Positions 15,425 through 56,440 of a DNA stretch of 56,656 bases are shown piece by piece. Within the stretch, counting starts at the first letter, position 1, and each line of letters begins with the position of its first letter. The DNA comes from Salinimicrobium sediminilitoris. Its GTDB lineage: Bacteria > Bacteroidota > Bacteroidia > Flavobacteriales > Flavobacteriaceae. Both the position numbers and the translations under genes were made by a program. The stretch is from positions 655,852 to 712,507 of the forward strand of contig NZ_JAIVCC010000002.1 in the NCBI RefSeq assembly GCF_020866905.1, given 5' to 3'. The notes under the pieces are model-generated. The model searched no databases, had not been told where the DNA came from, and saw only the letters and a program-made list of their open reading frames with translations.

Positions 15425-16618
15425 ATGAATAGAACAGCTTACATCGTAAAAGGATACCGAACTGCAGTGGGAAAAGCACCACGGGGGGTATTCAGATTTA
15501 AAAGGCCAGATGAATTAGCGGCAGAAACTATCCAGTTTATGATGGATAAGCTGCCCGAATTTGATAAAAAACGAATTGATGACGTGATCGTGGGGAACGC
15601 GATGCCCGAAGCCGAACAAGGACTTAATGTTGGGCGCTTTATCTCTCTCATGGGATTAAAGACCGAAGACGTGCCCGGGATGACCGTAAACCGCTACTGT
15701 GCTTCAGGCTTGGAGACTATAGCAATCGCCACAGCAAAGATCCAAAGCGGTATGGCCAACTGTATAATTGCAGGTGGTGCAGAAAGCATGAGCTATATCC
15801 CTATGGGAGGTTATAAACCTGTACCCGATTACAAACTGGCAAAAGCCGGAAAAGAAGATTATTACTGGGGAATGGGATTAACTGCGGAAGCAGTTGCTCA
15901 AAAATACAAGGTTTCAAGAGAAGACCAGGATGAGTTTGCATTTAACTCTCACCAGAAGTCTCTAAAAGCCCAAAAAGAAGACCGTTTCCAGGACCAGATC
16001 GTACCAATTACGGTAGATCAAACCTATGTCGATGAAAATGGCAAAAAACAAACGAAATCATATACTGTAAATAAAGACGAAGGTCCGCGTGCAGATACTT
16101 CAAAGGAAGTACTTGCTAAACTGCGTCCTGTATTTGAAGAAGGCGGAAGCGTTACAGCCGGTAATTCTTCTCAAATGAGTGATGGTGCTGCTTTTGTTAT
16201 GGTAATGAGTGAAGAAATGGTAAAAGAATTAAATCTTGAACCGGTTGCAAGACTTGTAAGTTATTCGGCTGTTGGGGTTGAACCAAGAATAATGGGGATA
16301 GGACCTGTTTATGCGATTCCAAAGGCTGTTAAACAAGCCGGAATTCAATTAAATGATCTTGAGTTGATCGAGCTTAACGAAGCCTTTGCATCTCAGTCTT
16401 TAGCAGTAATTCGAGAACTTGGACTGGATATGGACCGCATGAACCCGAATGGAGGAGCTATTTCGATGGGTCACCCGCTGGGATGTACAGGAGCCAAATT
16501 ATCCGTTCAGCTGTTTGACGAAATGCGCAAACGTGAACTGAAAAATAAATACGGAATGGTAACCATGTGCGTTGGAACAGGACAGGGAGCCGCGGGAGTT
16601 TTTGAATTCTTATCGTAA
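15425..16618 (+). CDS. fadA: Acetyl-CoA acyltransferase (3-ketoacyl-CoA thiolase)
   Basis: The 397-residue thiolase cleaves 3-ketoacyl-CoA with CoA to give acetyl-CoA and a shortened acyl-CoA, the last step of beta-oxidation. The nucleophilic Cys92 is in NRYCASGLE, the base His350 in SMGHPLGCTGA and the second catalytic Cys382 in TMCVGTGQGAAG. The length matches the family. It is the third enzyme of the fadN-fadA-fadE series and is expected to work with FadN. Its leader is formed by the right arm of the inverted repeat. Confidence 0.95.
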   Translation: MNRTAYIVKGYRTAVGKAPRGVFRFKRPDELAAETIQFMMDKLPEFDKKRIDDVIVGNAMPEAEQGLNVGRFISLMGLKTEDVPGMTVNRYCASGLETIAIATAKIQSGMANCIIAGGAESMSYIPMGGYKPVPDYKLAKAGKEDYYWGMGLTAEAVAQKYKVSREDQDEFAFNSHQKSLKAQKEDRFQDQIVPITVDQTYVDENGKKQTKSYTVNKDEGPRADTSKEVLAKLRPVFEEGGSVTAGNSSQMSDGAAFVMVMSEEMVKELNLEPVARLVSYSAVGVEPRIMGIGPVYAIPKAVKQAGIQLNDLELIELNEAFASQSLAVIRELGLDMDRMNPNGGAISMGHPLGCTGAKLSVQLFDEMRKRELKNKYGMVTMCVGTGQGAAGVFEFLS

Positions 16619-44732: not shown

Positions 44733-45070
44733 TGTCATTCCGACGTAGGAGGAATCTCTTCAGCACGCGAAAGAATCTTCGTTTTACAAATGCTCCGCTC
44801 TGAACGACAAACCCCTCCAATGTCATTCCGACGAAGGAGGAATCTCTTCAGCACACGAAAGATTCTTCGCTCCGCAAAAGCTGCGCTCTGAATGACAAAC
44901 TCCTCCAATGTCATTCCGACGAAGGAGGAATCTCTTCAGCACGCGAGAGATTCTTCGCTCCGCAAAAGCTGCGCTCTGAATGACAAACGACTCAAATGTC
45001 ATTCCGACGTAGGAGGAATATCTTCAGCACGGGAGAGATTCTTCGCTCCGCAAAAGCTGACCTCTGAAGG
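44733..45070. repeat. Four tandem copies of an 88-bp hairpin repeat
   Basis: Copies begin with TGTCATTCCGAC at 44733, 44821, 44909 and 44997, an exact 88-bp period, the last copy partly degraded. Each unit can fold: the outer ends TGTCATTC and GAATGACA pair, as do GAATCTC and GAGATTC inside. The array lies between the convergent ends of the DUF58 and photolyase genes and fills this gap of about 410 bp; no gene or separate terminator was seen, so the hairpins may end transcription. Confidence 0.92.
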
Positions 45071-45082
45071 ATAGCTTCACTT

Positions 45083-46393
45083 TTAATTCAGAGCTTTCTT
45101 ATACACTTCCAATGCTCTTGCCCGCGCAAATTTATGCTCTACAATAGGTTCTAAATAACCCGCCCTAAAATTGGGAATCCAGGTTTTAACATATTTTAGA
45201 TCGGGGTCGAATTTCTTAAGTTGGGATTCAGGATTAAAGATCCTGAAATATGGTGCCGAATCACAACCCGTGCCTGCTGCCCATTGCCAGTTTCCATTGT
45301 TGGAAGCCAGTTCATAATCCAGAAGCTTTTCGGCAAAGTAAGCTTCCCCCCAGCGCCAATCGATCAATAAATGTTTACACAGGAAACCGGCAACCACCAT
45401 CCTTACTCTATTATGCATCCAGCCGGTTTGGTTAAGCTGCCGCATCCCGGCATCCACCATGGGATATCCTGTTTCTCCCCTGCACCACAATTCAAATTCT
45501 CTTTCGTTATTACGCCAGGGAATACGGTCATATTTCCTTCGGAAATTATGCTGCTCTACATGAGGAAAATGGTACAGGATCATCATAAAAAATTCCCGCC
45601 AAATGAGTTCATTCAGCCAGGTTTCATTTTGTTGCAATGCCTGCTTTACAAGCTGTCGCACGCTCACAGTTCCAAACCTCAAGTGAATACCTGCCCTGCT
45701 GGTCCCTTCCACAAACGGAAGATCCCGTTTTTTATGGTAATCTTTTATCAATCCTTCAGAAAGATCTGCTTCAGAAATATGGAGCTCCACATTTTGAAAT
45801 CCTATTTCTTTTAGGGAAGGTATTCTCCCGTTTGCCTTTTTCAGCAGGTGAGATAAAAGAGTTTCAGAAGGAAATTCCGGAACAGATTGCCGGTAAAGAT
45901 TTTCCTTCCATTTTTTGGAGTATGGTGTAAAGACAGTGTAAGGAGTACCATCGGGTTTCATTACTTCTGCCTTCTCAAACATCACCTGATCTTTGTAAGT
46001 GGTGAATCCAACATTATTTTCATTCAGAAGATCTTTTACCTCTTTATCCCTTTTTCGGGCATAAGGTTCATAGTCATGATTCGCATAAACCTCCCGAACA
46101 GGGGTGTCAAAAATGAGCTTTTCAAATGCCTTTTTTGGCACCTCATGAAGTACCAGAAGAGATGCGCCAAATTCTAAAAGCTTTAAATTTATCTTCTCCA
46201 GCTCCTGATGAATAAAAGCCACCCGCTGATCCTTTTTATGAGGTAACGTGTTTAAAATTTCGGGGTCAAAGATAAAGATGACTTGCACAGGGAGTCCACT
46301 GTCGAGAGCATGGTAAAGGGCTGTGTTGTCAAATAACCGAAGGTCTCTTCGCAGCCAGCAAACAGCAATTTCCTTGTCTACAGCTTTTTCCAC
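45083..46393 (-). CDS. phrB: Deoxyribodipyrimidine photolyase (class I CPD type)
   Basis: The 436-residue flavoprotein uses blue light to split cyclobutane pyrimidine dimers. The N-terminal antenna-binding alpha/beta domain begins VCWLRRDLRLFDNTALYHAL; the FAD-binding region has TGYPMVDAGMRQLNQTGWMHNRVRM and LLDYELASNNGNWQWAAGTGCDSAPYFRIFNP, typical of class I photolyases. A cryptochrome role is less likely but not excluded. The probable start is GTG at 46393, which overlaps the upstream TspO-like gene by 16 bp. It is the last gene of the carotenoid operon, so repair may be induced by light together with pigment. Confidence 0.93.
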   Translation of the reverse strand: MEKAVDKEIAVCWLRRDLRLFDNTALYHALDSGLPVQVIFIFDPEILNTLPHKKDQRVAFIHQELEKINLKLLEFGASLLVLHEVPKKAFEKLIFDTPVREVYANHDYEPYARKRDKEVKDLLNENNVGFTTYKDQVMFEKAEVMKPDGTPYTVFTPYSKKWKENLYRQSVPEFPSETLLSHLLKKANGRIPSLKEIGFQNVELHISEADLSEGLIKDYHKKRDLPFVEGTSRAGIHLRFGTVSVRQLVKQALQQNETWLNELIWREFFMMILYHFPHVEQHNFRRKYDRIPWRNNEREFELWCRGETGYPMVDAGMRQLNQTGWMHNRVRMVVAGFLCKHLLIDWRWGEAYFAEKLLDYELASNNGNWQWAAGTGCDSAPYFRIFNPESQLKKFDPDLKYVKTWIPNFRAGYLEPIVEHKFARARALEVYKKALN

Positions 46394-47145
46394 GGAGAGT
46401 ATTTTCGGTTTTTATAACCATGAATTCCGCTGCTAATCACTAATATTCCTGCCGTGATCACAGCTGTTAAAAAGATCCCTTCATTTTCTCCCTGGTTAGC
46501 AACCCCAACAGCTACAAGGCCCCAGGCACCCACCAGAGCAAATTCTCTCATGTTACGAGTCCAGGTAATTAGTAAGTTAATAAAGGCAGCTACAATGATC
46601 ATAATAAGGGTCCAGGTGACATTAGAAATCCCTAAGCCATCCCATCCCAAAGAAGTGAGAAAAGCAGCAGTATTTGCAATTAGAGCAACGCTGATCCACC
46701 CGGAATAAAATGAAAACGGCCACCACAAAAATGCTATTACTTTTAATGGTTCGTCATCAAGCTCCATCCTGGTTTTGATAATGATCATTATTAGAGAAAA
46801 TAACAATAAAGACATTAAAATTACTGAAAGGCCGGTAAGATGATTTAACCAGGCAAAGATCCAGCTTATGTTAAGGACACAGGTGATCACGAACCACCAG
46901 CCAATTTTTACAGCTGCCTCCTTCCCGCGGGAACTTATCGCCTGGAAAGTCACAAAGCCGGCAAGGCAAAGATAGATTAGTCCCCAAATGGAAAACGCAT
47001 ATCCTGCCGGAGTAAACAAATTCTCATATTCCGCAGAAACCGTTGCCATGGTCTCACCATTGATCGCTCCGGTGTTCGAAAAGTAATTAATGGTCACCAT
47101 TGCAATAAAAGCTACAATGTTGGAGATTTGCAAGATCTTTTTCAT
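46378..47145 (-). CDS. TspO/MBR-like tryptophan-rich membrane protein
   Basis: The 255-residue protein has about seven membrane helices. The tract LFTPAGYAFSIWGLIYLCLAG and WWPFSFYSGWISVALIANTAAFL resembles the core of TspO/MBR proteins, which bind porphyrins and in some bacteria control carotenoid or photosynthesis genes. It is longer than classic TspO (about 160 residues), which suggests an extended relative. The start overlaps the lycopene cyclase stop (ATGA). Its function in the light-response operon is unknown; porphyrin or carotenoid binding is inference. Confidence 0.7.
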   Translation of the reverse strand: MKKILQISNIVAFIAMVTINYFSNTGAINGETMATVSAEYENLFTPAGYAFSIWGLIYLCLAGFVTFQAISSRGKEAAVKIGWWFVITCVLNISWIFAWLNHLTGLSVILMSLLLFSLIMIIIKTRMELDDEPLKVIAFLWWPFSFYSGWISVALIANTAAFLTSLGWDGLGISNVTWTLIMIIVAAFINLLITWTRNMREFALVGAWGLVAVGVANQGENEGIFLTAVITAGILVISSGIHGYKNRKYSPWKKL

Positions 47146-47864
47146 AATGCTGTAGTCTTAAGATTTGCCGCTGCGACAGCCTTTTTCCTGTTTAAAAGAT
47201 ATTTGTAGATAAGCAGGTTCATGAGGATCAATTCGGCTCCGTAAAACGCATCTTCCACAGGGATCGTCCCTATCCTGAAGTTCATAAATTCTTCGGGATT
47301 ATACCATACTACCTGTTCTTCGATCCAGCTTCCGGTAAGGATCCCGTTCACGAAAAAGAAGGGAATCAACAATACCGCATAGATCACATAAAACCGGGTG
47401 AGCCAGTTGATCTTCAGAATAAATTGGGCGTATAAAAGCAGAAGGGCAAAACTGAAGAAAGTAGTGGCAGTATAGCTTTTTGAGAAATGGATCGTTCCGA
47501 AGATCAATAAAAAAGCCACCAGAAAAAGTGTGATGATTTTTTGCATTTTTGATCCCCCTATTTCGTTCATGAAAAGATCAAGACAGTGAAACGTGAAGAC
47601 ACAGGCATAAGGAATACAAAAGAAAAACAGCACCTCCTCAAGCGGAAGGTTGCCTATTTCTATACCTGTGAGATAGCGGTCATTAAACCCCCATACTCCC
47701 ATTTTGGTGAATAACATATCCCAAAGCACGAAAACTAATCCTGTGAGGAAAACGGCCGGGAAAAATGCACACCAGGTTTTGTGAAATTTCAGCCGGGGAT
47801 GAAAAGAAAACAGGAAGGGAATGATGATAGTAAAGAAGTTGACCAGCAGATATGTGTATTGCAT
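47142..47864 (-). CDS. crtY: Lycopene cyclase (CarR/CrtYcd type)
   Basis: The 240-residue integral membrane protein contains two copies of the lycopene cyclase domain in one chain: the first has GNLPLEEVLFFFCIPYACVF (about 71-90), the second TIPVEDAFYGAELILMNLL near 195-215. This heterodimer-like fused type forms beta-ionone rings, turning lycopene into beta-carotene, and is unrelated to plant-type CrtY or CrtL. Its ATG overlaps the crtZ stop by one base (TAATG), so translation is coupled. The symbol crtY is used by function only; crtYcd would be more exact. Confidence 0.92.
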   Translation of the reverse strand: MQYTYLLVNFFTIIIPFLFSFHPRLKFHKTWCAFFPAVFLTGLVFVLWDMLFTKMGVWGFNDRYLTGIEIGNLPLEEVLFFFCIPYACVFTFHCLDLFMNEIGGSKMQKIITLFLVAFLLIFGTIHFSKSYTATTFFSFALLLLYAQFILKINWLTRFYVIYAVLLIPFFFVNGILTGSWIEEQVVWYNPEEFMNFRIGTIPVEDAFYGAELILMNLLIYKYLLNRKKAVAAANLKTTAL

Positions 47865-48331
47865 TAGGCAGTTTTTCTTTGTTCCCTAAAATATTTCATT
47901 GGTACCCAAAGCATTCCGAAGCACTCTCCTTCTTCCTTACCAATATGTTTATGATGCATTTTGTGAGCACGACGTATGGCTTTGAAATAAGAATTATCTG
48001 CTTTGCGCAGCACTTTAAATCGTTGATGTATAAAGATGTCATGAACAAAGAAATATGCCATTCCATAGAGGGTAATTCCCAAACCTATCCAAAACAGGAA
48101 ATTGAAGCCTGCCTCCATTCCAAAATAGAGAGAGATGATCCCCGGAATGGCGAAAATGAGAAAGAAGAAATCATTATGTTCAAAAAATCCCTTCGATTCC
48201 TTCTTGTGGTGGTCTTTATGTAAGGTCCACAACAGCCCATGCATGATATATTTATGGGTGAACCATGCAACACCTTCCATGGCAAGAAAAGATGCCAGTA
48301 CTATTAGAAAATTTATTGCTATCGTCTCCAT
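47864..48331 (-). CDS. crtZ: Beta-carotene hydroxylase
   Basis: The 155-residue di-iron membrane hydroxylase adds OH groups to beta-ionone rings, giving zeaxanthin. The His clusters are FTHKYIMHG, LHKDHHKK, VHDIFIHQRF and AHKMHHKHIGKEEGECFGM, spaced as in the CrtZ family. Several membrane helices separate them. It opens the second half of the carotenoid operon after a 45-bp gap that holds an inverted repeat. Confidence 0.95.
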   Translation of the reverse strand: METIAINFLIVLASFLAMEGVAWFTHKYIMHGLLWTLHKDHHKKESKGFFEHNDFFFLIFAIPGIISLYFGMEAGFNFLFWIGLGITLYGMAYFFVHDIFIHQRFKVLRKADNSYFKAIRRAHKMHHKHIGKEEGECFGMLWVPMKYFREQRKTA

Positions 48332-48340
48332 TTTTTTATT

Positions 48341-48372
48341 TTTAATTCAAGTATTAAGATACTAAAATTCAA
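48341..48372. repeat. Inverted repeat in the only gap of the carotenoid operon
   Basis: AGTAT (48350-48354) and ATACT (48359-48363) form a stem around TAAG, with flanking AATTC and AATTT partly extending it. It lies in the 45-bp gap between the unknown secreted protein gene and crtZ. It may be an attenuator, processing site or operator; the stem is weak. Confidence 0.4.
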
Positions 48373-48376
48373 TTTT

Positions 48377-48868
48377 TTATTTTAATTTTTCTTTTTCGGC
48401 CGCAGTAAGGCCTTTGGATGCTTTTAGGTAGTTAAGGATCATTTTTTGAAGTTCCTTATCTTCGAGAGTGTCTACACCTGCAATAAGTAAAGCTTTATCC
48501 TCTTCAAGATTATCACGGTATCCAAGAAAAGCTGGAGCTTCGGCTTGGACAGCAAACCTAAGGAACCGCAGTTCCAGGTTTTGTTTATCGGCTGCTATCG
48601 CACTGCTAAAAATATCCTTGCCTTTATTAAAGTGAGACATCTTCTTGAATGGATTTCCCACGTGCTTCGCCATCATCATATGTCCCGCACCTTTGTAACC
48701 CAGCACCACAGGATCTTTAAGCTCTTCATTTTCTGAAAGCTCCAAAAGGCTTCTTGCTGCCTTCTCATTCTCGGCAGCTTTGTTATAAAGCTTGCGGGCT
48801 TCTGAAATATTAGATTGTTGCATCACCATCCCCGTCATCACAAAAAGTAAAACCATTAAATACTTCAT
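48377..48868 (-). CDS. Secreted protein of unknown function in the carotenoid operon
   Basis: The 163-residue protein begins with a signal peptide (MKYLMVLLFVMTGMVMQQ) and is otherwise helical: YNKAAENEKAARSLLELSEN, then SHFNKGKDIFSSAIAADKQNLELRFLRFAVQAEAPAFLGYRDNL (broken here for reading by eye near 80-125) and a Lys/Glu-rich end. The helix pairs resemble TPR-like repeats but no exact family is recognised. The ATG at 48868 shares one base with the crtB stop (TGATG), so it is translationally coupled to crtB. Retention between crtB and crtZ suggests a role in pigment location, which is inference. Confidence 0.78.
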   Translation of the reverse strand: MKYLMVLLFVMTGMVMQQSNISEARKLYNKAAENEKAARSLLELSENEELKDPVVLGYKGAGHMMMAKHVGNPFKKMSHFNKGKDIFSSAIAADKQNLELRFLRFAVQAEAPAFLGYRDNLEEDKALLIAGVDTLEDKELQKMILNYLKASKGLTAAEKEKLK

Positions 48869-49704
48869 CAAATAATTCTCATTTTACATTCTACAAGACT
48901 GTTGATCATTAAGCCAACTTTACGGCCATTATTGATCCTTATTCTTCCCGAAAGTATTCTTTTTGCAGGTAATCTCTTGATCTTTTTAAATAAAGATTGA
49001 TAATAAACATAGGCAAGATAGACCCCTCCCTTTGAAGAAGCCGGTAACATCTTTATCCCTTGTAGTGCTATCCTGAAGTCTTCTTCTATCTCTTCTTCAA
49101 TTTGCTGTTTTGCCTCTGCCGAGAAATTTTCCATATCCACGCCTGGGAAATAGGTTCTTCCCAACACATGATAATCATCCTTAAGATCCCTCAGAAAATT
49201 TACTTTCTGAAAAGCTGCCCCCAACTTCATCGCATAAGGTTTTAACTCTGCAAACATTTTTTTGTCTCCTTCGGTGAAGACGTGCAGACACATGAGTCCA
49301 ACTACCTCGGCAGAACCCAGGATGTACTGTTGGTATTTTTCATCTGTATAATCCACTTTTTGAAGATCCATTTCCATACTCTTCAAAAAGGTATCGATGA
49401 GTTCCCTGTCTATGTCAAACTCATGCACTACCTCCTGAAAGGAGTTCAATATAGGGTTGGCAGAAATTTTCTGTTCCAAAGCCTCATAGGTATCCTCCCT
49501 AAATTTCTTTAGCAGGTACTCCTGGTCATAACCTTCAAAACTGTCCACGATCTCATCGGCAACCCTTACAAATCCATAGATTGAGTAAATTGGGTCACGC
49601 AGCCTGTCGTGTAGGAAATAGATCCCGAGCGAAAAGCTGGTACTATAGGAGCGTGTAGTGAGCCGGCTTACCTGTACCGACAGATCATCAAACAGTGACT
49701 TCAT
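48868..49704 (-). CDS. crtB: Phytoene synthase
   Basis: The 278-residue enzyme joins two geranylgeranyl diphosphates to phytoene, the first committed step of carotenoid synthesis. Both Asp-rich motifs are present: DEIVD (Asp50-Asp54) and RDLKDDY (Asp173-Asp177), each binding Mg-diphosphate. YSTSFSLGIYFL near 20-31 is typical of trans-isoprenyl head-to-head synthases. The start lies 17 bp inside crtI. The GGPP synthase needed for substrate is not in the window. Confidence 0.95.
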   Translation of the reverse strand: MKSLFDDLSVQVSRLTTRSYSTSFSLGIYFLHDRLRDPIYSIYGFVRVADEIVDSFEGYDQEYLLKKFREDTYEALEQKISANPILNSFQEVVHEFDIDRELIDTFLKSMEMDLQKVDYTDEKYQQYILGSAEVVGLMCLHVFTEGDKKMFAELKPYAMKLGAAFQKVNFLRDLKDDYHVLGRTYFPGVDMENFSAEAKQQIEEEIEEDFRIALQGIKMLPASSKGGVYLAYVYYQSLFKKIKRLPAKRILSGRIRINNGRKVGLMINSLVECKMRII

Positions 49705-51184
49705 ACTTCTTCTTTTTTAATTCTTTTATAACTTGTTCTGCCGCGATATTTCCCGAAATAAGCGACGGCGGCACTCCCGGACCGGGCACTGTAAGCTGCC
49801 CCGCGTAAAAGAGATTATTAAGCTTTTTGTTCTTTATTTTGGGTTTTAGCACGGCTGTTTGTTGCAGAGTATTTGCCAACCCGTAAGCATTGCCTTTATA
49901 AGAGTTGTAATCTGTAATAAAATCTGAAACACAGTAGCTCTTCTTATAATCAATCTTACCACAAATGCTGCGGCCTATTTGTTTTTCGAGCCGCTTTATC
50001 ATAATCTGGAAAAATTTTTCCCGGGTGGCCTCTTCATCTTTCAATCCCGGTGCCAGTGGCATAAGCATAAAGAGGTTTTCGTGACCTTCGGGCGCTACCG
50101 AATCATCGGTTCTTGAAGGACAACATACATAGAACAAAGGCTTAGCAGGCCATTTTGGATCTTTGTAGATTTCGACGGAATGATCATAAAGATCTTCATC
50201 AAAGAATAAGGTATGGTGCTCCAGCTCCGGAATTCTTTCTGAAATTCCGAGATAGTAAATAAGACAGGATGGAGCAAAAGTTTTATTGTTCCAGTACTTT
50301 TCGCTGTAATTCTGAAACTCCTTCGGAAGCAATTTTTGTTCCACATGTTGATAATCGGCCGCTGCTACGACTGCATCAAATGTTATTTCTTCCCCATGAA
50401 CTCTAAGGCCTTTTACGCTACTTTCAGCTGAAATGATCTGCTCCACAGGGGCATCAAAATGGATCTCAACTCCCTGTTCCCGGGCTACTTTTACCATTGC
50501 ATCTATCACACTTCCGAAGCCACCCTGGGGATACCATGTTCCCAGCTTAAGTCCGGCGTAATTCATAAGACTATAAAGCGCCGGGGTATCTTGCGGCATA
50601 GCTCCCAGAAACAAGACGGGGAATTCCATAAGGGAGATCAACTTTGGATCTTTGAAATATTTTCGCACATGTTTGCTGAAAGAAGAGAACACCTGCAGGC
50701 GCATGGCACCTTTAATGAGATCCAGGTCTACAAATTCGGTAAGGGAAATGCCCGGCATATAAACCAGTCTTTCCATTCCCTGCTCATATTTATATTGTGC
50801 CTCCTCCATAAATTTATCGAGTTTGTCGGCACTCCCGGCTTCAGTTTCTTCAAACAGTTCCCGAAGCTTAGTATAATTCTCGGGAATACTTAATTTTTCA
50901 TTCTGAGGAAAAACCACTTCAAAAGACGGATCCAACAGGTCAAGTTGATAAAGATCTTCTACCTTGTGTCCAAAATCGCCAAAAAACTTTTCAAAAACCC
51001 CCGGCATCCAGTACCAACTTGGCCCCATGTCATAAGTATAACCGCTGGAAGTTTTGAATTGCCTGGCCCGGCCACCGGCACTGCTGTTCTTCTCAAAGAT
51101 ATGCACCTCGTGGCCTGCAGCTCCCATGTATGCCGCCGCACTTAAACCCGAAAAACCTGCTCCTATTACTGCAATTTTTGACAT
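49688..51184 (-). CDS. crtI: Phytoene desaturase (CrtI type)
   Basis: The 498-residue FAD-dependent membrane-associated enzyme desaturates phytoene to lycopene. It begins with the dinucleotide motif MSKIAVIGAGFSGLSAAAYM and ends with LFYAGQLTVPGPGVPPSLISG near 460-480, the bacterial CrtI signature. Length and order next to crtB are as expected. Its ATG overlaps the carH-like stop by one base (TAATG), so regulator and enzyme are read from one message. Confidence 0.95.
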   Translation of the reverse strand: MSKIAVIGAGFSGLSAAAYMGAAGHEVHIFEKNSSAGGRARQFKTSSGYTYDMGPSWYWMPGVFEKFFGDFGHKVEDLYQLDLLDPSFEVVFPQNEKLSIPENYTKLRELFEETEAGSADKLDKFMEEAQYKYEQGMERLVYMPGISLTEFVDLDLIKGAMRLQVFSSFSKHVRKYFKDPKLISLMEFPVLFLGAMPQDTPALYSLMNYAGLKLGTWYPQGGFGSVIDAMVKVAREQGVEIHFDAPVEQIISAESSVKGLRVHGEEITFDAVVAAADYQHVEQKLLPKEFQNYSEKYWNNKTFAPSCLIYYLGISERIPELEHHTLFFDEDLYDHSVEIYKDPKWPAKPLFYVCCPSRTDDSVAPEGHENLFMLMPLAPGLKDEEATREKFFQIMIKRLEKQIGRSICGKIDYKKSYCVSDFITDYNSYKGNAYGLANTLQQTAVLKPKIKNKKLNNLFYAGQLTVPGPGVPPSLISGNIAAEQVIKELKKKKYEVTV

Positions 51185-52080
51185 TAGGCTAATTTTATTT
51201 CTTTTACCTCCCGCTCCAGGTCTTCAACAGTGGAAAGTAGGATTATATCTTTTTTATCCTTTAAAATCTTGGGATCTACACCTCCCCCGGCAATAAAGAT
51301 TTGACGTTGTCCTGCCAGATCACGAAGCTCCTTTAAGTAAGTGTCTATCTTTTCGGGCAGGTCATGATGCACCAGGAAAAGCATTAGATTATCTATTTCA
51401 AGTCCCTCTAGGGTGTGCTTAATAGAAGACAATGGAACATTAGCGCCTAAATAAATGACATTTTTGCCCCTGCTTCGTAAAAAATAATTTGTGAATAAAA
51501 GTCCCAACTCATGGAATTCATCTTCGGGCAAAAAGAGTAACCAGTTCTCTTCGGCTTTTTTGACCGGTGGCATAGAATCTATGGCTGTAAACATTTTCTG
51601 CTTCAAAAGATTGGAAATATAATGTTCCTGTGAAGGAGGTATGTTGTTTACAGACCACATAAGACCTATTCTATTTAACAATGGAAGTATAATTTCAACA
51701 TAGGTTTTTTGCAGACCAAACTTCAATAAACAATGAGAGAAGGTTTTCTCAAAATTTGCTTCGTCATATCCCATCCCCGCAGCAACCAGCTGATTGATAA
51801 AATACTGGTAATCTTCTTTCAAACCGGCCTCACTCTCATAGTCCGCTCTCATCTTGAAAAGCTCCTCATCACTCATGGCGCACAGCTTTGATATCTTTAC
51901 TCCTGTCTCTGCCAATCCTACGATATTGAGGAGGCGTCGCAGTTGGGCACCGTCATAATACCGGGTATTTCCTTCAGACCGGTGGGGCCTGAGAGCGTTG
52001 TACCGCTTTTCCCAAATGCGAATGGTGTGCGGTTTAATACCCGAAAACTGGGAAAGCTGACTGATGGAGAATTGATCCAT
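51184..52080 (-). CDS. carH: CarH/LitR-like MerR-family B12-dependent photoreceptor regulator
   Basis: The 298-residue protein has an N-terminal MerR DNA-binding domain (ISQLSQFSGIKPHTIRIWEKR, with TRYYDGAQLRRLL) and a C-terminal cobalamin-binding module. Two diagnostic motifs are present: W-x9-EH (Trp142, Glu152, His153 in MWSVNNIPPSQEHY) and the E-x-H-xx-G motif (EFHELG, His190), the lower cobalt ligand. In Myxococcus and Thermus CarH these mark binding of 5'-deoxyadenosylcobalamin; the dark-state tetramer represses carotenoid genes and light breaks the complex. The residue after Trp142 is Ser, where Thermus CarH has a His that ligates cobalt after photolysis. The preferred start is ATG at 52080 (MDQFSISQLS); the upstream ten codons are AT-rich leader. 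It is the first gene of the carotenoid operon. Confidence 0.9.
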   Translation of the reverse strand: MDQFSISQLSQFSGIKPHTIRIWEKRYNALRPHRSEGNTRYYDGAQLRRLLNIVGLAETGVKISKLCAMSDEELFKMRADYESEAGLKEDYQYFINQLVAAGMGYDEANFEKTFSHCLLKFGLQKTYVEIILPLLNRIGLMWSVNNIPPSQEHYISNLLKQKMFTAIDSMPPVKKAEENWLLFLPEDEFHELGLLFTNYFLRSRGKNVIYLGANVPLSSIKHTLEGLEIDNLMLFLVHHDLPEKIDTYLKELRDLAGQRQIFIAGGGVDPKILKDKKDIILLSTVEDLEREVKEIKLA

Positions 52081-52128
52081 GTTTAAATTATTTAAATCAA
52101 AATTAAACATAAAAACCTTTGAAATATG

Positions 52129-52143
52129 TTAATTCTGAATTAA
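52129..52143. promoter_or_regulatory. Candidate CarH operator / promoter palindrome
   Basis: TTAATTC-T-GAATTAA is a perfect 7+1+7 palindrome 49-63 bp upstream of the carH-like ATG. On the minus strand it sits just after a TTTG (52149-52152) that could be the -33 element, the usual place for a repressor site. Autoregulation by the CarH-like protein is inferred. Confidence 0.45.
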
Positions 52144-56325: not shown

Positions 56326-56332
56326 AAAAGAA

Positions 56333-56440
<108 letters not shown>

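Follow-up and report, generated by a model that had tools for sequence, protein, structure and literature searches.

How might one light signal bring both pigment synthesis and DNA photorepair under control in a flavobacterium? The question is raised by an operon on the minus strand of a 56,656-nucleotide stretch of the Salinimicrobium sediminilitoris genome (contig NZ_JAIVCC010000002.1, positions 655,852 to 712,507; hereafter the window), in which a MerR-type regulator gene, carH, is followed by carotenoid genes (crt) and, at the far end, by a photolyase gene (phr). The reading that we favor, at a probability of roughly 0.7, is that this Bacteroidota CarH/LitR-type protein represses its own gene, the crt-phr operon and a regulon marked by the same operator, and that light releases the repression. 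The operon, the motifs of the regulator, the operator and its conservation, the neighboring genes and the co-occurrence of the operator with carH are observed directly.

The inverted repeat at carH and its distribution

A perfect inverted repeat, TGTTTAA-N16-TTAAACA, stands at the head of the operon and is the only perfect copy in the window. It ends on the A of the carH start codon, and its first half runs into TAATTTTG, which fits the TAnnTTTG consensus that we take to be the Bacteroidetes -7 box; the site overlaps both this box and the carH start, and binding there would block RNA polymerase. A perfect copy was found at carH in all 11 same-genus genomes that bear the gene (11 of the 12 in the genus sample, the window's included; the sole exception is 74% complete). 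The regulator most likely starts at 52080 (MDQFSISQ) rather than at 52110, where an ATG lies over the operator's outer end; that ATG is an unlikely start because its frame is shifted or interrupted by stop codons in relatives, which conserve the start at 52080. Upstream of the operator lies a second palindrome, TTAATTCAGAATTAA; 4 of 10 same-genus loci conserve its 5-bp arms.

The background control was the operator pattern read backwards, so that base composition was shared with the same genomes; the genomes are related, and site counts are not independent trials. Among Flavobacteriales, perfect sites numbered 173 in the 90 carH-bearing genomes (control 19) and 12 in the 106 other genomes (control 12). 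In this 196-genome split, 10 of the 100 genomes with a carH match, having short or weak matches, were placed among the 106 others, and none of the ten has a perfect site. The phylum sample gave 43 sites against 4 in 37 genomes from other orders of the same class, and 18 against 23, which is control level, outside the class. Among 80 named Bacteroidota carH loci, a set that includes Pedobacter, Pontibacter, Algoriphagus and Chitinophaga, 67 carried the operator at no more than one mismatch anywhere in the locus (45 of them perfect), compared with 2 of 80 for the control.

A sequence-free dyad count put the operator first, exact in 37 of the 80 loci with a shuffled maximum of 1. Degenerate half-sites, from TGTnnA to TnnACA, were found at an offset of 24 in 59 of these loci and of 25 in 14, and degenerate inverted pairs at all other offsets from 7 to 30 occurred in at most 8 loci each. 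Direct pairs of TnnACA with a period of 11 occurred in 8 of 80 loci, a count matched or exceeded at several other periods, and formed no triples. Direct repeats of TnnACA with a period of 21 were seen in 17 of the 80 named carH regions (L294-L373), above other periods. An N17 spacing was rejected within the genus, where its one-mismatch sites numbered 32 against 29 for the control.

The half-site TTAAACA contains TnnACA, which is the CarH core in published operators (PMC9304148; the articles cited here were available in part, and statements drawn from them are limited to those parts). Families f6, f8 and f11 have the repeat in a TGTATAA-N16-TTATACA form (at most one mismatch), located before carH in some genomes. 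The recognition-helix residues K26, H28 and T29 were present in 29 of 29 rows of the TGTTTAA type and in 0 of 9 of the TGTATAA type, these nine counting one genome twice (L012/L041) and including L036, whose site lies about 300 bp past the carH end and is not at a promoter. The K/H/T counts of the named set were not used, since the peptide patterns by which that set was found include K[PA]HT. Half-site changes thus appear to accompany recognition-helix changes, as a correlation.

The regulator and its operon

As the earlier note had described, the regulator is a MerR-type protein that carries both the Wx9EH motif (WSVNNIPPSQEH) and the ExHxxG motif (EFHELG). Its N-terminus matches the MerR DNA-binding domain PF13411 (E 1.7e-14), a four-helix B12-binding_2 domain follows (PF02607, 27.6 bits against a cut-off of 23), and Thermus CarH is the solved structure that it matches most closely (E 7.5e-16). 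The 80 named loci keep the motif residues W in 80, E in 79 and H in 79, and the axial His in 77; an order-level alignment of 59 rows, which counts some genomes twice (L011/L040, L012/L041, L013/L042), has Trp in 59 and the axial His in 57. The axial His is replaced and Trp kept in the relatives L031, L032, L323, L329 and L366, where a loss of B12 sensing is possible. Short CarH-like proteins, aligning to the window protein over roughly residues 9-196 and no further, were seen in G045, G076, G106, G131 and G151, and likewise as second copies in G126, G061 and G117; as if lacking the Rossmann domain, these may resemble class II LitR. The genome of the window encodes a PduO-type corrinoid adenosyltransferase (PF01923) and two cobalamin riboswitches (L374, L375), which make adenosylcobalamin (AdoCbl) plausible as the cofactor. 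By eye, one of the riboswitches is located at a BtuF/BtuC-like transporter and the other near ribonucleotide reductase genes.

All eight minus-strand genes were recovered in the order that the earlier note had given, and its overlapping junctions with a single 45-bp gap agree with the recomputed values (carH/crtI -1, crtI/crtB -17, crtB/hypothetical -4, hypothetical/crtZ +45, crtZ/lycopene cyclase -1, cyclase/tspO -4 and tspO/phr -16 bp, with overlaps at 6 of 7). All 10 other carH loci of the genus keep the full order, which argues that the arrangement is not due to chance. The gene labels of the earlier note stand for the six proteins backed by profile families (photolyase, lycopene cyclase, crtZ, crtB, CrtI and the regulator with its MerR and B12-binding_2 domains), and the TspO-like label is weak, the window protein having no PF03073 match. 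The features are listed in the table below.

Table. Features of the carH-crt-phr region, in window positions, with the support for each assignment
Feature	Position	Strand	Support
phr, deoxyribodipyrimidine photolyase	45083..46393	-	PF00875, PF03441; top NCBIfam model is the 8-hydroxydeazaflavin (8-HDF) type, under its cut-off
TspO-like membrane protein	46378..47145	-	PF03073 E 2.3e-4 in 1 of 3 family members, window protein unmatched
lycopene cyclase (CarR/CrtYcd type)	47142..47864	-	PF18916, TIGR03462
crtZ-like hydroxylase	47864..48331	-	PF04116 (FA_hydroxylase)
crt-cluster protein, conserved, with a hydrophobic N-terminal stretch and an all-helical model	48377..48868	-	
crtB, phytoene synthase	48868..49704	-	PF00494 (SQS_PSY)
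crtI, phytoene desaturase	49688..51184	-	NF058655 CrtID, 712 bits against a cut-off of 640
MerR regulator of the carH/litR type, beginning at M11 of the open reading frame listed	51184..52080	-	PF13411, PF02607, Thermus CarH match, same-genus alignment
putative CarH operator, perfect inverted repeat	52080..52109	-	conserved at carH in the genus
TAATTTTG, TAnnTTTG box within the operator	52098..52105	-	sequence; kept in 9 of 10 other same-genus loci (not L090)

The helical protein between crtB and crtZ had no family match in profile searches; by eye its N-terminus resembles a signal sequence, and homologues are present at 19 of the 80 named loci. Its structure model is good (predicted local distance difference test score, pLDDT, 91), and the TPR-like and 14-3-3-like matches of a fold search were weak, none reaching E 0.001, and gave no function. 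A regulatory role was speculatively proposed for a hypothetical protein at the equivalent place in a Chryseobacterium crt cluster (PMC7064467). The model of the TspO-like protein was too poor for use (pLDDT 57). Directly downstream of phr, an 88-bp unit is present in 3.8 copies (44733-45068), and a 5S rRNA lies on the minus strand at 56330-56439.

Across the order, carH and crtI are co-directional in 34 of 40 loci (from 39 genomes) and a photolyase lies downstream in 17 of 40. Family f7 and 34 of the 80 named loci have a gene for an extracytoplasmic function (ECF) sigma factor near carH, often with one or more repeats directly before it; for one f7 copy this identity was confirmed. In L031, L033, L035, L038, L039, L042, L043 and L070 the gene is preceded by two operator copies, some with one mismatch, at a spacing of about 53-56 bp. 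The operon of the genus lacks a sigma gene. The f7 clusters hold varying sets of genes for isopentenyl-diphosphate isomerase, PTPS, GTP cyclohydrolase I, a short-chain dehydrogenase, flavin reductase and photolyase. In the tree, the CarH clade of the window joins Chitinophagaceae and Pedobacter (support 98/98 and 100/98), apart from other Flavobacteriaceae genomes of the sample family f1, and Agriterribacter humi (L295) has a like operon ending in tspO-phr, with an SRPBCC-like protein (by eye) in place of the helical protein. This placement and the like operon suggest that the crt-phr cassette may have been transferred between lineages.

Genes marked by the repeat elsewhere

The regulon is likely wider than the eight-gene operon. 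The genome of the window has six N16 sites at no more than one mismatch, the carH site included. One lies between the genes of a fasciclin lipoprotein and a divergent MORN protein (Pfam was run on the copy of the window genome), a pair found at the site, by translation, in 9 of 9 same-genus loci read. Another is located at a second fasciclin gene, and one (L140, C12:39020) between a TetR_C_23/ABC1-kinase unit and the divergent htpG gene (identified by eye). A further site, with one mismatch here and perfect in G202, precedes a small SRPBCC-like protein (by eye) without a family match, which elsewhere neighbors photolyase. The site at 16306, inside a thiolase-like coding frame (by eye), is probably a chance match. 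Relatives of the TetR_C_23/ABC1-kinase pair were also seen near crt-phr clusters in L058, L063 and L064.

Flanks were read for 60 listed perfect sites from 14 other genomes, skipping places inside carH loci and one of the two listed in G018. Among the sites listed, the 88 flanking proteins included 14 fasciclins, 8 TetR_C_23, 5 DUF1731 (TIGR01777 type) and 4 DUF2911 proteins, 3 flavin reductases, 2 rhodopsins, 2 Blh and 2 cryptochromes, together with others that show no obvious relation to light, such as penicillin amidase and DUF2452 (3 each). Genomes hold few fasciclins each; 49 domain places were counted across 13 genomes. The green-algal fasciclin AstaP binds carotenoids and one cyanobacterial homologue did not (PMC10147662), so that carotenoid binding by the site-linked fasciclins is only a guess. 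General direct operator control of DASH cryptochromes was rejected, a site lying within 400 bp of 3 of 30 such genes (control 0).

In the 196 genomes, 43 rhodopsin genes exceeded the family cut-off and 42 had enough upstream sequence; G140 (59 bases upstream) and G192 (below the cut-off) were left out of the scan, and G070 was retained although its match contains a stop. The repeat, at no more than one mismatch, was found within 620 bp before the domain start in 27 of the 42 genes (12 perfect), compared with 1 of 42 for the control. A copy 84-177 bp before the domain start in 26 of these 27 places the sites near the promoter. The family of the window has a site before 5 of 5 rhodopsin genes, and in families f6, f8 and f11 a TGTATAA-type repeat precedes 14 of 21 (control 1 of these 21); the rhodopsin profile search gave no match in the genome of the window itself. 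Rhodopsin-bearing flavobacteria are described as enriched in photolyase, with no regulator given in the available part of that article (PMC5932025).

Weighing the readings and comparison with known systems

In the mechanism that we propose, the regulator would bind the inverted repeat in the dark together with AdoCbl and block RNA polymerase at the -7 box, keeping carH and the crt-phr operon behind it repressed; light would break the Co-C bond, the protein would leave the DNA, and pigment and photolyase would be made together. The same protein would repress dispersed genes with the same operator, which in its own genome would be the two fasciclin-domain proteins, the TetR/ABC1-kinase unit and, less surely, the small SRPBCC-like protein. 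In relatives the predicted regulon adds rhodopsin and Blh, some DASH cryptochromes and TIGR01777 proteins, and in many of them the ECF sigma gene beside carH. DNA binding, repression, the role of cobalamin, release by light and co-transcription are all predictions made from sequence.

Several findings weigh against this reading. The Rossmann B12 domain has no Pfam match, though phmmer aligns Thermus CarH through residue 281, and the NCBIfam CarH equivalog NF052513 scores 85.1 bits, far below its cut-off of 400. At the place of the Thermus His132, the residue after the Trp, the window protein has Ser, and none of the 80 relatives has His. Of the SxT/V and GG that make up the classic B12 motif (PMC9304148), GG is present and the Ser is Phe (Ser in 7 of 80 relatives), and the column before it, Thr in 52 of 80 relatives, is Leu. 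Published CarH operators are tandem 11-bp direct repeats, an architecture that the authors argue for even in CarA (PMC9304148) and of which no excess was found here. The link between helix and half-site is only a correlation and may reflect descent, since the two half-site groups are also clades, and L053, tallied with the TGTTTAA type, has no site near its carH. Family f2 holds 4 perfect sites in 3 genomes without a carH match (G001, G017, G029). In the genus, N16 sites at one mismatch numbered 58 against 42 for the control, so that single one-mismatch sites are weak evidence and the perfect sites carry the weight. Sites within genes make up 1 of 6 in the own genome (16306) and 3 of 40 among those read elsewhere, and no site was found within 400 bp of 27 of the 30 DASH genes or before 15 of the 42 rhodopsin genes.

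A CarH-family repressor of the same genes, using the same operator, might answer to another signal or partner rather than act as an AdoCbl photosensor, as with CarA and class II LitR, the latter working through a LOV protein (PMC9758184). The lost B12-motif Ser and the missing His132 equivalent would fit such a protein, as would the loss of the axial His in 2 of 59 and 3 of 80 relatives and the crtI-crtB and photolyase genes still found behind the His-less genes of L031 and L032. We nevertheless consider it unlikely, given that W, E, H and the axial His are kept in the window and in nearly all relatives, that the genome has the adenosyltransferase and the cobalamin riboswitches, and that CtMerR, which carries Arg in the His132 position, has been described as a B12 photoreceptor (PMC11796333). 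The proposal of the earlier note that one photoreceptor governs pigment and repair holds up in its layout, a CarH/LitR-type regulator heading a packed crt-photolyase operon with the only perfect operator of the window in front of it, and needs qualifying in its chemistry: with the His132 equivalent and the B12-motif Ser missing, the photochemistry may differ.

That the repeat is the target of some other factor, be it the ECF sigma, a TetR protein or a global regulator, with CarH acting elsewhere, would accord with the sigma gene in 34 of 80 named loci, often just behind the repeat, with the TetR_C_23 proteins at listed sites and with the f2 genomes. It is very improbable in our view, as the same-genus operon is free of sigma genes and yet all 11 genomes have the repeat at carH, the half-site is the TnnACA core of CarH, and the recognition helix varies with the half-site. 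It is also quite unlikely that phr, the last gene, has its own promoter and shares the gene order through mere packing. In favor of this reading, no operator copy within one mismatch precedes phr, a photolyase is in the cluster at just 17 of 40 order-level loci, and a crude scan of the region listed 3 promoter-like and 6 terminator-like minus-strand sites. Against this, the totals of that scan on both strands are near the shuffled level (promoters 15 against 15.0; terminators 11 against 7.4, standard deviation 2.7), phr overlaps tspO by 16 bp, the order recurs in 10 of 10 same-genus loci, and Agriterribacter has a similar operon with the same tspO-phr end.

Whether one B12 photoreceptor, acting through an inverted TnnACA pair, might be a master switch for pigment, photorepair, secreted fasciclin proteins and rhodopsin phototrophy throughout the Bacteroidota is, in our judgment, an even bet. 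If so, the light response across the phylum would depend on corrinoid supply, B12 availability would become a predicted switch for photoheterotrophy, and the fasciclins would be candidate carotenoid carriers. The sequence-defined operator would offer a testable target list, poorly known families (fasciclin lipoproteins, TetR/ABC1 kinase) would be placed in the light response, and CarH would gain another operator geometry for optogenetics.

Coupling of pigment and photorepair under this family is not new in kind and is known elsewhere; work by Takano from 2011 is said to place Thermus LitR over carotenoid and photolyase genes together. In Streptomyces, LitR is paired with LitS, an ECF sigma factor; this adjacency is shared by many relatives, whereas the operon of the window has no sigma gene. 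Control of carotenoid genes by CarH has been published for Myxococcales and others (PMC9304148), and of photolyase by class II LitR for Pseudomonas (PMC9758184). Among the open-access papers listed by our searches, we found none on a Bacteroidota CarH operator or on CarH control of rhodopsin, and no regulator named for light control of rhodopsin or photoprotection genes in Bacteroidota. The light-induced cluster of Chryseobacterium lacus shares crtI, crtB, a hypothetical protein gene, crtZ and the cyclase, but its authors found no car/lit gene, as far as the available part of the article states (PMC7064467). The class II LitR proteins of Pseudomonas (PplR/PmlR) share a two-half-site operator, T(G/A)TACA-N12-TGTA(C/T)A, at light genes such as phrB, cryB and folE; they differ in spacing, retain just the helix bundle and answer to a LOV protein, whereas the axial His is present here (PMC9758184). 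Closest are CarH of Thermus thermophilus and Bacillus megaterium and class I LitR, with which the regulator shares the MerR helix-turn-helix, the B12-binding_2 domain, Wx9EH, the axial His, adjoining carotenoid genes and the TnnACA half-site. It differs from known CarH in lacking the His after the Trp and the SxT/V Ser, in a fixed-spacing inverted repeat where those have tandem 11-bp direct repeats (PMC9304148), and in a predicted regulon that is dispersed and in relatives includes rhodopsin; the inverted operator geometry and the regulon marked by it would be the new part.

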